64,000 bases of DNA, taken from Halopelagius longus (GTDB taxonomy: Archaea > Halobacteriota > Halobacteria > Halobacteriales > Haloferacaceae). Below the pieces are notes generated by a model. The model was not told the DNA's origin. It ran no database searches and saw only the letters and a program-made list of their open reading frames with translations. Below, piece after piece: positions 30,703-61,957 of the stretch. A program made the translations under genes and the position numbers. The stretch's first letter is position 1; every line of letters starts with the position of its first letter. Location: assembly GCF_900100875.1 (NCBI RefSeq), contig NZ_FNKQ01000001.1:620001-684000 (forward strand), written 5' to 3'.

Positions 30703-31119
30703 ATGTCCCTCCACCGACGACTCGCCCTCCGCGAACGCCTCCGCCCGTGGCACGGCCTGATGTTCGCCGCGTTCCTCGCCGGCACGGCGCGGACGCTCTC
30801 GACCCTGACGGAGCCGATTTCGCCCTCGGCGGTCGCTCTCGCGGCGTTCAACGGCCTGCTTTGGGTCCTCGGCTTCCAACTCACCGTCGGCATGCTCTGG
30901 GCGTACGCCGTCGAGTACTACAACGCGGGCGGAAAGTGGACCGACCTCCCGTTCCTCGTCCCCTTCGCCGTCGCCGTGGCCGTCGGCGTCGCAGTCGGCG
31001 TCGTCTTCGAGAACGCCGGCGGCGCGGTGTGGGCGGCGTTCTGGACGTTCGTCGTCGTCGCGGGACTCACCGCCGTCGTCGTCTGGGTTCGCGTCGGTTA
31101 CCGCGAGTCCGCCGCCTGA
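30703..31119 (+). CDS. Four-helix membrane protein, unknown function
   Basis: The 138-residue protein starts MSLHRRLALRERLRPWHGLMFAAF and has about four membrane helices, with a VEYYNAGGKWTDLP loop between helices two and three. I do not recognise a family. The frame is open upstream from a TTG at 30676, but the ATG at 30703 gives a tidy basic head before the first helix. The last 22 bases overlap the end of the convergent hydrolase gene. Confidence 0.65.
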   Translation: MSLHRRLALRERLRPWHGLMFAAFLAGTARTLSTLTEPISPSAVALAAFNGLLWVLGFQLTVGMLWAYAVEYYNAGGKWTDLPFLVPFAVAVAVGVAVGVVFENAGGAVWAAFWTFVVVAGLTAVVVWVRVGYRESAA

Positions 31120-31760
31120 AGGAACGAGAGGAGGAAGTCGGCCACCCGAACCGCGACTTTCCCGGCCTGTCCGATAAAGAAGTGGTCCGCGCTGAACTCG
31201 ACGACCGACTGGTGCGTCTCGCGGGCGCGTTCGACCACGGGTTCCCACTCGACGGTGTCGTCGCGCGTCCCGTACAGCACTTGGACGGGGACGGGAACGT
31301 CGTCGAACGACGCGACGGCGTCTAAGTCGTCGGCGAGGCGGGCCGTCGGCGCGAGTGCGGAGACGGCATCGACAGACGGCGTCTGTCGGCCTGACGAGCT
31401 TTGCTCGTCATCGTCCGTCGGCGCGCCCTCCGCGGCGGTCAGAAGCGCCACCGTCGCGCCGAAACTGAACCCGAACAGACCCACGCGGTCGTAGCGGTCC
31501 GCCGCCCACGCGACGGCGTTCCCCGCGTCCGCCGTCTCGCCGTACCCCTCGTCCCACGCGCCGTAGTCGAAGCGGAGGCAGTCGACGCCGCGGTCGGTCA
31601 GTTCGTCGCCGACGGCGACGAGTCTGTCGTCGCCGCGGTGTCCGCTCTGTCGGGGATGCGGCGGGCAGGCGACGACGCACGCCGTCGCGTTCCCGTCCTC
31701 CGCTTCGTCGAGCGACGCCCGGACGTCTCGACCCCCCGGAACGAGAACCGTCTCGGTCAT
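31098..31760 (-). CDS. Alpha/beta hydrolase (dienelactone-hydrolase-like) carrying an inserted peptide
   Basis: The 220-residue protein has the nucleophile elbow GFSFGA (Ser99), a likely acid in YGTRDDTVEWEP and the catalytic His in SADHFFIG. It resembles small haloarchaeal dienelactone-hydrolase-type esterases. Residues 118-131 (DEQSSSGRQTPSVD) are encoded by a two-hairpin DNA element also found in the 61514 gene; they interrupt the loop after the nucleophile helix. The gene is divergent from pspA, with one TTTTAA box midway between the starts, and its end overlaps the convergent membrane-protein gene by 22 bases. The substrate is unknown. Confidence 0.8.
   Translation of the reverse strand: MTETVLVPGGRDVRASLDEAEDGNATACVVACPPHPRQSGHRGDDRLVAVGDELTDRGVDCLRFDYGAWDEGYGETADAGNAVAWAADRYDRVGLFGFSFGATVALLTAAEGAPTDDDEQSSSGRQTPSVDAVSALAPTARLADDLDAVASFDDVPVPVQVLYGTRDDTVEWEPVVERARETHQSVVEFSADHFFIGQAGKVAVRVADFLLSFLQAADSR
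31371..31409 (-). repeat. In-frame two-hairpin palindromic element, copy A
   Basis: On the minus strand the element reads GACGAGC-AAA-GCTCGTC, a five-base spacer, then GACAGAC-GCC-GTCTGTC: two perfect 7-bp hairpins with 3-base loops. It lies wholly inside the alpha/beta hydrolase gene in frame. Compared with copy B at 61643, 32 of 39 positions match, the first stem is identical, and the reading frame through the element is the same. Confidence 0.85.
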
Positions 31761-38905: not shown

Positions 38906-40201
38906 ATGTCTCAAGACACCCCGTCGGCAGACGAACGTACTCGCCAATCCGTAGAAACGCCGCCGGAAACCGCGCTGGACACCGCGCGACACCAACTCAA
39001 CCAAGCCGCATCGTACCTCGACGTCGACCCGAACATCGTCGAACGACTCAACCACCCCGCGTCGGTCCACGAAGTGACGGTTCCGCTCGAACGGGACGAC
39101 GGCACCGTCGAGATGTTCCGAGGGTACCGCGCGCAACACGACAGCGTGCGAGGGCCGTTCAAGGGCGGTCTGCGCTTCCACCCCCACGTCGGTCGCGAGG
39201 AGTGCATCGGGTTGGCGATGTGGATGACGTGGAAGTGCGCGGTCGTCGACATCCCCTTCGGCGGTGCGAAAGGCGGCGTCGTCGTCAACCCGAAGGAGTT
39301 GAGCGACGACGAAACCGAGCGGTTGACCCGCCGCTTCACCAACGAACTGCGGAACGTCATCGGCCCCATGACGGACATCCCGGCGCCGGACATGGGCACC
39401 GACGCGCAGACGATGGCGTGGATTATGGACGCGTACAGCGTTCAGGAGGCCGAGACGATACCCGGCGTTGTGACGGGGAAACCGCCCGTCATCGGCGGCA
39501 GTAAGGGCCGAGAAGAAGCGCCCGGACGGAGCGTCGCCATCATCGCCCGAAAGTTACTCGACTACTACGACTACCCGATAGCGGAGACGACGGTGGCCGT
39601 GCAGGGGTTCGGAAGCGTCGGCGCGAACGCCGCCCGGTTGCTCGACGATTGGGGGGCGTCCGTCGTCGCCGTCAGCGACGTCAACGGCGCGGCCTACGAC
39701 CCCGACGGACTCGACACGCGCGCGATTCCCTCCCACAACGAGGAACCGGAGGCGGTGACGACCTACGCCGACGAGACCATCGGCAACGAGGAGATCCTGG
39801 AACTCGACGTGGACCTCCTGATTCCGGCGGCCATCGGGAACGTCATCACCGAGGACAACGCCGGGGACGTCGATGCGGACATGATCGTCGAGGGCGCGAA
39901 CGGACCGATAACGTTCGTCGCGGACTCGATTCTCGCCGAACGGGACGTCCCCGTCGTGCCCGACATCCTCGCGAACGCCGGCGGCGTGACGGTGAGTTAC
40001 TTCGAGTGGCTCCAGGACATCAACCGTCGCTCGTGGTCGCGCGACAGGGTGAACGAGGAACTCGAAGAGGAGATGCTCGCCGCGTGGAACGCCGTCCGGC
40101 GGGAGGTCGAAGAACGCGACGTTACGTGGCGCGACGGCGCGTACGTCGTCGCCCTCTCGCGGATAGCCGAGGCACACGAGAGCCGCGGACTCTGGCCGTA
40201 A
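38906..40201 (+). CDS. gdhA: Glutamate dehydrogenase, copy 1
   Basis: The 431-residue enzyme interconverts glutamate and 2-oxoglutarate plus ammonia with NAD(P). The catalytic region includes [11 protein letters not shown] and [17 protein letters not shown] (substrate lysines), and the cofactor fold shows [17 protein letters not shown]. Whether it prefers NAD or NADP is not decided by what I can see. A close paralogue lies at 57970-59277 on the other strand. The gene follows a rubrerythrin-like gene by 22 bases and ends before a convergent conserved protein. Confidence 0.94.
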
Positions 40202-57969: not shown

Positions 57970-59277
57970 TTAGGGCCAGATGCCCCGCGCCTCGTGGGCG
58001 GCCGCGACCCGCCGGAGGGCGACGGCGTACGCCGCTTCGCGCCACGTCCGCGCGCCGCCTTCGAACTCGGCTCGGACCGCCTCCCACGCGTCGGTCATCT
58101 CGCTTTCGAGTTCCTCGTGGACGCGTTCGAGCGACCACGCCCGCCGATTGATGTCTTGTAACCACTCGAAGTACGAGACGGTGACGCCGCCGGCGTTCGC
58201 GAGGATGTCGGGGACGACCGGAATCCCGCGCTCTTCGAGTATCTCGTCGCCGGCGAACGTCGTCGGGCCGTTGGCGCCTTCGACGACTAACTCGGCGTCC
58301 ACTCGCCCGGCGTTGTCGGCGGTGACGACGTTGCCGACGGCCGCCGGAATCAGCACGTCGACGTCGAGTTCCAGAATCTCGTCGTTCGAGAGTTTCTGCG
58401 GCGCGTCGTACGTCATCACCGCTTCCGGCTCCTCCTCGTGGGTCGGAACGTCGCGGGTGTCGAGTCCGTCGGGGTCGTATATCGCGCCGTTGACGTCGGA
58501 GACGGCGACGACGTTCGCGCCCCAGTCGTCCAACAGGCGCGCGGCGTTCGCGCCGACGCTCCCGAACCCTTGGACGGCGACGGTGACCTCCGAGAGGTCC
58601 CAGCCGTAGTACTCGACGGCTTCGCGGGTGACGATGGCGACGCTTCGGCCGGGCGCGCCGTCACGCCCCTCGCTCCCGCCGATGACCGGCGGCTTACCCG
58701 TGACGACGCCGGGAACCGTCTCGCCCTCCTGCATCGAGTAGGCGTCCATGAACCACGACATCGTCTGGGCGTCCGTCCCCATGTCCGGCGCGGGGATGTC
58801 GGTGTGCGGGCCGACCACGTCGCGGAGTTCCTGCGCGAACCGACGGGTGAGACGCTCCTTCTCCTCGGCGGAGAGCGACTTCGGATCCACGACGACGCCG
58901 CCCTTCGCCCCGCCGAACGGGAGGTCCATCACGGCGCACTTCCACGTCATCCACATCGAGAGGCCGACGCACTCGTCGCGCGTCACGGCCGGGTGGTAGC
59001 GGAGTCCGCCCTTGTACGGGCCGCGGACGCTGTCGTGTTGGGCGCGGTAGCCCGTGAACACCTCCAGCGTCCCGTCGTCGCGTTCGACCGGGAGTTTGAC
59101 TTCGTGGACCGTCCGGGGGTGACGGAGGCGTTCGACGACGTTCGGGTCGATGTCGAGGCGCGTCGCCGCCCGGTCGAGTTGTTTCCGGGCCGTCTCGACG
59201 GCCGACTCCTCCGTCTCCTCTGTGGCCGCGTCCGGCGCGTCCGTCTCGTCCGCCGATGGCTCAGTACTGGTTCCCAT
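57970..59277 (-). CDS. gdhB: Glutamate dehydrogenase, copy 2
   Basis: The 435-residue protein is a paralogue of the 38906 enzyme, sharing [47 protein letters not shown] and [22 protein letters not shown]. The conserved lysines for substrate and acid-base catalysis are present. The first 40 residues are acidic and differ from copy 1. Two paralogues often differ in NAD or NADP use or in growth-condition control. Here it lies between adk and DUF106, 313 bases after adk and with an A/T-rich promoter-like region of its own. Confidence 0.93.
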
Positions 59278-61513: not shown

Positions 61514-61957
61514 ATGACGCGATTCGACGCCGACGAACCCCGCGAGCGACGGAAACTGTTCGCCGAGGCGTTCGCCGCCCACCGCGAACGCGCCAGCGCG
61601 TTCGTGACGTTCGAAGTCGACCACGAGGAGAACTCAGACGTTGACGAGCAGGGCTCGTCAGCCCGCCAGACGCAGTCTGGTGACGGCGAGGACGAGCCCG
61701 CGCCGTGGGTGCAGTTCGCCGACCAGACGTTCAACGTGGACGTGACCGACGAGGAACTCGACCGCCTGAAGTCGCTGTTGGACGAGTTCCCCGAGCTCCG
61801 CATCGACCGGATGGAGTCGCCCGACGCCGCGGAGGGGACGAACGTCCGCATCACCGCGCGGTCCGACGCAAACCGCCTCGCGGCGTTCGTAGACCGGACG
61901 TTCCAAGCGGTGTACGGCCGCGACGAGGACTACCGCGCGTGGGTCGCCGCGGTCTGA
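61514..61957 (+). CDS. Conserved haloarchaeal-type protein carrying an inserted peptide
   Basis: The 147-residue protein begins MTRFDADEPRERRKLFAEAFAAHRERASAFVTFEVD and has WVQFADQTFNVDVTDEELDRLKSLLDEFPELR. It looks like a soluble alpha/beta protein of unknown family. Residues 44-57 (DEQGSSARQTQSGD) are encoded by the second copy of the two-hairpin element and lie in a loop between strand and strand. A TATA-like TTTTTCTA lies about 28 bases before the ATG. Confidence 0.65.
   Translation: MTRFDADEPRERRKLFAEAFAAHRERASAFVTFEVDHEENSDVDEQGSSARQTQSGDGEDEPAPWVQFADQTFNVDVTDEELDRLKSLLDEFPELRIDRMESPDAAEGTNVRITARSDANRLAAFVDRTFQAVYGRDEDYRAWVAAV
61643..61681 (+). repeat. In-frame two-hairpin palindromic element, copy B
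   Basis: GACGAGC-AGG-GCTCGTC (61643-61659) is followed by a six-base spacer and CCAGAC-GCA-GTCTGG (61666-61680). It lies wholly inside the 61514 gene and in frame; 32 of 39 positions match copy A at 31371-31409 (minus strand), including the complete first stem, and both copies are read in the same frame. Confidence 0.85.

Follow-up and report, generated by a model that had tools for sequence, protein, structure and literature searches.

The window analysed here is a stretch of 64,000 nucleotides of the haloarchaeon Halopelagius longus (contig NZ_FNKQ01000001.1, positions 620,001 to 684,000), in which two copies of a short palindromic element lie in frame inside protein-coding genes (Table 1). 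Copy A is located in a gene for an alpha/beta hydrolase-like protein and consists of two perfect 7-bp hairpins with 3-base loops, five bases apart; its sequence, coordinates and reading frame all agree with the original prediction for this DNA. The prediction also held for copy B, which lies in an unrelated gene of 147 amino acids, is identical to copy A at 32 of 39 bases and is read in the same frame. Copy A alone is perfect in both hairpins, because the second hairpin of copy B carries a mismatch, a G-T at the outer pair. Regarding the extent of the element, the predicted two-hairpin stretch of 39 bp is real, but the inserted unit is larger, amounting to 45 bp (15 codons), of which about 5 bp are duplicated target. 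The protein that carries copy A was modelled with AlphaFold2 at a mean pLDDT of 88; the insert follows the nucleophile helix and precedes the next strand, with pLDDT values <50 at residues 117-124 and an otherwise confident fold. No Rfam family was detected at E<=1 for window positions 31300-31500. Elsewhere in the window, inverted stretches at 38965-40201 and 57970-59209 are about 75% identical, and a fragment translated by eye reads like glutamate dehydrogenase, which suggests that these stretches are paralogues.

Table 1. Positions in the window of the two copies of the element, their parts and their host genes.
Feature	Position	Strand	Description
Copy A host gene	31098..31760	minus	Alpha/beta hydrolase-like, 220 aa; weak matches to Peptidase_S15, FSH1 and DLH
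Copy A, whole insertion	31371..31415	minus	45 bp
Copy A, 40-bp element	31371..31410	minus	T, hairpin 1, AGGCC, hairpin 2; from the degenerate pattern and empty sites
Copy A, core	31371..31409	minus	Read from 31409 to 31371: GACGAGCAAAGCTCGTC AGGCC GACAGACGCCGTCTGTC; in frame in host gene
Copy A, hairpin 1	31393..31409	minus	GACGAGC AAA GCTCGTC; 7 bp, 3-base loop; 8 bp via 31410/31392 T-A
Copy A, hairpin 2	31371..31387	minus	GACAGAC GCC GTCTGTC; 7 bp, 3-base loop; sister species has G-C at one A-T pair
Copy A, left target-duplication position	31411..31415	minus	GACGA, decayed; position inferred from flank statistics of 75 copies
Copy A, right target-duplication position	31366..31370	minus	GATGC, decayed; position inferred from flank statistics of 75 copies
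Copy B host gene	61514..61957	plus	147 aa; no Pfam family at E<=0.01; close orthologues about 132 aa, without insert
Copy B, whole insertion	61637..61681	plus	45 bp
Copy B, 40-bp element	61642..61681	plus	T, GACGAGC AGG GCTCGTC, AGCCC, GCCAGAC GCA GTCTGGT
Copy B, core	61643..61681	plus	39 bp compared with copy A
Copy B, left target duplication	61637..61641	plus	GACGT
Copy B, right target duplication	61682..61686	plus	GACGG

The arrangement of two closely spaced hairpins exceeds what is expected by chance. The combined pattern matched twice in the window, compared to 0.00 matches expected from 100 shuffles, and a degenerate pattern matched at 15 places in the 3.87-Mb source genome and at none in the reversed control. 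Searching for single hairpins with mismatches was uninformative, giving fewer matches in the window than the shuffled expectation. In a count over 1.6 Mb of the sister species that made no use of the sequence itself, 11 pairs of perfect 7-bp, 3-base-loop hairpins were found at a spacer of 5, against 0-1 at each other spacer from 0 to 20; the other spacers served as the control here, since palindromes remain palindromic when reversed, thus making reversed sequence unusable. When the loop and spacer sizes were shifted, the counts indicated stems of 8 bp in most cases.

The 15 source-genome copies align ungapped over 60 columns. With the two hairpins imposed on this alignment, 95.7% of the cells in the 14 pairs were standard, compared to 20-43% paired in slid structures, and 22 cells were changed on both sides, compared to 7.6 in shuffles. 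Columns 15 and 21 covary (A-U in eight copies, G-C in six, G-U in one); since both are third codon positions with silent changes, the protein cannot be the source of the covariation. In a set of 75 non-orthologous copies, the stem pairs ranked top in mutual information, together with -1/18, the eighth pair of hairpin 1, and the flank pairs -2/+5, -4/+3 and -5/+2 ranked high as well. These 75 copies were chosen partly for pairing and their pairing percentages are inflated, so that the independent evidence comes from the covariation in the 15 copies and from the spacing count. Besides, the element as a whole approximately matches its own reverse complement, and its reverse strand also scores in the covariance model.

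The covariance model gave 118 matches at E<=1 in the source genome (3.9 Mb) and about 29 distinct loci at E<=1e-9, counted after merging both strands of one place, with a similar abundance in the sister species. A copy at E<=1e-9 was present in 94 of 170 genomes and 17 of 28 genera of the family, while in the class Halobacteria 188 of the 391 sampled genomes and 54 of 86 genera held a copy. In the phylum sample, none was seen outside the haloarchaeal order, all 23 positive genomes belonging to that one order. Scanning GTDB for the exact pattern with one genome per species (84,980 species) returned ten stretches, all in Halobacteria and including Halorubrum, Halolamina, Haladaptatus, Haloferax profundi and Natronobiforma; an exact match was not found in viral contigs. 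An array of at least four hairpins of the family, with spacers alternating between GGCCC and GACGTC, lies in apparently non-coding DNA of genome G001 (C1:50480-50590), and hairpin arrays with alternating spacers occur in the sister species.

Within genomes, the element is dispersed in frame over unrelated conserved enzymes, among them tryptophan synthase alpha (TrpA), anthranilate synthase I (TrpE), amidophosphoribosyltransferase (PurF), SAICAR synthetase, an ArsA-type ATPase, alpha-amylase, a heavy-metal P-type ATPase, ABC exporters, mercury reductase and FtsY, the latter carrying two copies in its acidic N-terminal region. Confinement to the two genes of the window can be discarded, tens of unrelated hosts being present both in the source genome and across Halobacteria. 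Two oxidoreductase genes carry identical 45-mers at the matching place with flanks (up to 600 bp) lacking blastn similarity, and ABC ATPases carry copies at the same loop after Walker A, in one pair without detectable upstream DNA similarity. These sequence comparisons suggest recent, repeated and site-preferring insertion. Copies were also found in non-coding DNA, those at loci L029 and L030 being seemingly intergenic. At these two loci (C3:107683-110724 and C3:721760-724801), the copies lie within longer similar blocks of the form GAGCGAACGAAGTGAGCGA...CTTTTTGGTCCA...element...CCCCCTGTAAAAAG, which resemble a more extensive intergenic repeat or a terminator-like module.

The proposal that a mobile palindrome spreads through coding DNA is supported by these tens of unrelated host genes and by the presence of empty sites in orthologues. 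Copy B was absent from every other orthologue aligned, including that of the sister species; most of them measure 396 bp compared to 441 bp, and the closest ones, the sister species included, are exactly 45 bp shorter. Copy A was common to the sister species only and was absent from the remaining family orthologues aligned, which are shorter by about 15 residues. The source genome contains two GACGGT motifs separated by 39 bp where the sister species has a single GACGGT, and other copies fit a gain of 45 bp too. In the alignment of plasmid mercury reductase genes (merA), the clearest case among named genes, the site is filled in Halorubrum trapanicum and Halomarina sp. BCD28, while ten other haloarchaeal plasmid merA genes are empty and continuous at CTCGACGACGTT^GACTAC. 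The empty sites thus fix the unit as a net gain of 45 bp, and the genes without the insert are otherwise intact.

Among the 75 non-orthologous copies, flank positions -6 to -2 were identical to positions +1 to +5 at a rate of 0.768, compared to 0.667 expected from shuffled partners (z about 8); no comparable identity appeared at other offsets or in codon-phase controls, and none at -1/+6. The flank identity is thus specific to each copy, and the favoured description is a 40-bp element with a 5-bp target duplication of consensus GACGT. Many flanks differ by one or two bases, most often with GGCGT on the left and GACGT on the right; the frequency of this combination implies that the right end may hold part of a conserved GAC and that the duplication could be 4-6 bp, and the decay of old copies makes its length uncertain by about one base. 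Taken together, the flank statistics and the empty sites support a target-site duplication as used in defining MITEs. At loci L024 and L056 of the source genome, two copies follow each other head to tail with a period of 45 bp, in agreement with the insertion of one copy into the duplicated target of another. The target-site duplication with its GACGT target and the exact 45-bp unit were lacking from the original prediction, as was the grouping with haloarchaeal rather than Rickettsia elements.

A disordered, acidic, serine-rich linker shared through convergence or protein ancestry, with palindromes as a by-product of codon usage, could in principle produce similar peptides in different proteins, since such linkers are common in haloarchaeal proteins and both copies in FtsY lie in an acidic region. 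This explanation is extremely improbable, as the host proteins are unrelated, orthologues are short by exactly 15 residues, intergenic copies exist, and the spacing-specific excess was found without using the sequence; the silent-silent stem covariation and the empty sites refute it.

The stems remain matched after insertion, as follows from compensated changes in shared copies. Between the two sister species, copy A differs in both loops and in one compensated stem pair (A-T to G-C), and in another copy common to both the outer pair has changed from G-C to A-T. Selection for structure and templated correction between the arms would both have this effect. The maintained complementarity would also be expected if the hairpins were kept for a host function, such as mRNA structure or protein binding, with the copies being domesticated regulatory elements. 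Considering that the copies are positioned arbitrarily in genes unrelated to each other, that most orthologues lack them, and that templated correction would likewise keep the stems matched, we regard such a function as very unlikely to explain the family.

The merA alignment contains two further in-frame palindromic inserts at other merA sites, found in plasmid merA of Salinigranum rubrum, Halorussus vallis and Natrinema zhouii (L286, L287 and L288). The first, of 45-51 bp, has a 45-bp layout like that of the main family, with stems GAGGGAC and ACCGGAC or ACCGGGC, and the GAGGGAC-stem family is present in 43 of 292 genomes, the majority of which belong to the Halorubrum-containing genus. The second adds 54 bp and is present in 9 of 292 genomes.

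The reading frame and strand of the copies are strongly biased. Among 38 copies with a coding signal on both flanks, 35 are read in sense in one frame, two are antisense in the matching phase and one is in another antisense frame. The sense reading is a hydrophilic linker with a consensus of about D/A-E-Q/R-x-S-S/A-A-R/H-Q/R-T-x-S-G/D-D. In coding sequence, GACGT occurs at 37% in that sense phase, at 43% in the antisense phase and at 15% in sense phase 2, so that target choice accounts for the phase but not for the strand. Phase-0 copies with an open antisense frame are divided into 27 sense and two antisense, and stop codons thus fail to explain the sense bias. The bias could come either from selection on the peptide or from the insertion mechanism. 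At locus L020 (source genome C3:600486-600527), a copy lies just after an upstream start codon and has a TAG in loop 2 in the usual frame; translation probably starts downstream of this copy.

Spread linked to RNA or transcription, for example into the exposed single strands of transcribed genes, would give sense insertions directly. The strand counts above point in this direction, as does the 54-bp family: judged from the upstream side, all 12 of its fetched copies read in sense in a single frame, and 11 of the 12 do so when both sides are considered. Nevertheless, no linked reverse transcriptase or other enzyme is known and selection on the peptide could yield the same bias, and we therefore consider this route unlikely. 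A bolder possibility, which we hold unlikely, is that very short two-hairpin elements (45 or 54 bp) form a superfamily in haloarchaea and act as protein-loop generators, with the insertion mechanism itself, beyond selection, placing them in the sense strand of transcribed genes. If so, new loops of 15-18 residues would be delivered in frame across proteomes.

Considering the empty sites, the flank duplications and the covariation, we think it likely that the family is a non-autonomous mobile element of 40 bp, formed by two adjacent hairpins, which inserts at GACGT-like targets with a duplication of about 5 bp and adds 45 bp, or 15 codons, per insertion, the sense peptide being a tolerated disordered loop. 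Insertion at GACGT-like sites would involve a 5-bp staggered cut that duplicates about 5 bp, and the host frame is kept because the 45 bp added equal 15 codons. A transposase supplied in trans may recognise the hairpins and move the element, a step for which we judge the chances to be even; in 1.6 Mb of the sister species, a search for an autonomous partner found no orphan hairpins bracketing a transposase-sized gap. The peptide would form a flexible, hydrophilic, disordered surface loop tolerated in housekeeping enzymes, and survival in genes would reflect tolerance rather than benefit. The stems may owe their complementarity to a requirement for the hairpins in mobility, or else to templated repair that keeps one arm matched to the other. 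Against this explanation stands the sense bias, which exceeds what target choice or stop codons would predict and which plain transposition leaves unexplained.

The family shares with REP elements and BIMEs short hairpins that are paired or arrayed in many copies. Movement by a REP-associated tyrosine transposase (Y1, IS200/IS605-like) that acts on hairpins in single-stranded DNA would agree with the paired hairpins and the CGTY tetranucleotide just 5' of hairpin 1, and the tandem 45-bp units and the sister-species arrays with alternating spacers resemble BIMEs. However, REPs are extragenic by definition (PMC12306157), whereas most copies here are genic, and the available passages on Haloquadratum describe IS605-type elements without target duplication (PMC3119063), whereas flank duplication is seen here. 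An element of this type is therefore improbable, and identity with REPs or BIMEs is rejected on their extragenic definition.

Transposase-free mobile repeats have previously been described in haloarchaea. According to the available passages on Haloquadratum walsbyi (Dyall-Smith et al. 2011, PMC3119063), MITEs there are often accompanied by target duplications, and palindromes lie near the ends of PATEs. The MITEs, PATEs and SMRs of that species resemble the present family in being mobile repeats without a transposase, but PATEs and SMR-A make no duplication, SMR-A measures about 110 bp and often lies inside other mobile elements, and none of these repeats is described in those passages as a frame-preserving insert in protein genes (PMC3119063). 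Identity with SMR-A, which is about 110 bp long with inverted terminal repeats and no duplication, was rejected.

The original prediction likened the element to the Rickettsia palindromic elements (RPEs; Ogata et al. 2000, 2002), described as 105-146 bp in length with a long stem-loop of terminal repeats, a target duplication not being established for them (PMC2229807). The likeness stands as regards the effect, both being palindromic mobile DNA found in frame in many unrelated, apparently functional genes and also between genes. On the other hand, the haloarchaeal element has 40 bp (45 with the duplication), two separate hairpins and a duplication of about 5 bp at GACGT. Membership in the RPE families was rejected on length and stem-loop, with a haloarchaeon as host and the exact pattern only in Halobacteria; the element belongs instead to a group from haloarchaea that includes at least two other relatives. 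Coding palindromes of Methanocaldococcus jannaschii (2005), as cited in PMC2229807 and PMC2996958, provide an archaeal precedent, and these and the Wolbachia palindromes (Ogata et al. 2005) represent a phenomenon of the same kind. The M. jannaschii palindromes, compared here through these citations, differ in their methanogen host, whereas the matches of our model in the phylum sample are confined to the haloarchaeal order. No prior description of the element in haloarchaea was found in a search of open-access literature.

Overall, the phenomenon is already best known from Rickettsia, and the haloarchaeal family is shorter, widespread and endowed with a defined target site. Reports of in-frame palindromic inserts in genes have come mostly from Rickettsia and Wolbachia, bacteria that are restricted to hosts and difficult to manipulate. 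The same phenomenon is now found in free-living archaea, some of them with genetics, and in over half of the sampled genera. For genome annotation, this means that the 15-residue inserts will resemble lineage-specific protein insertions. Given the free-living hosts, the 45-bp unit, the target motif and the empty sites in merA, old questions become testable, namely what moves such elements, whether they are functional or tolerated, and what causes their sense bias.
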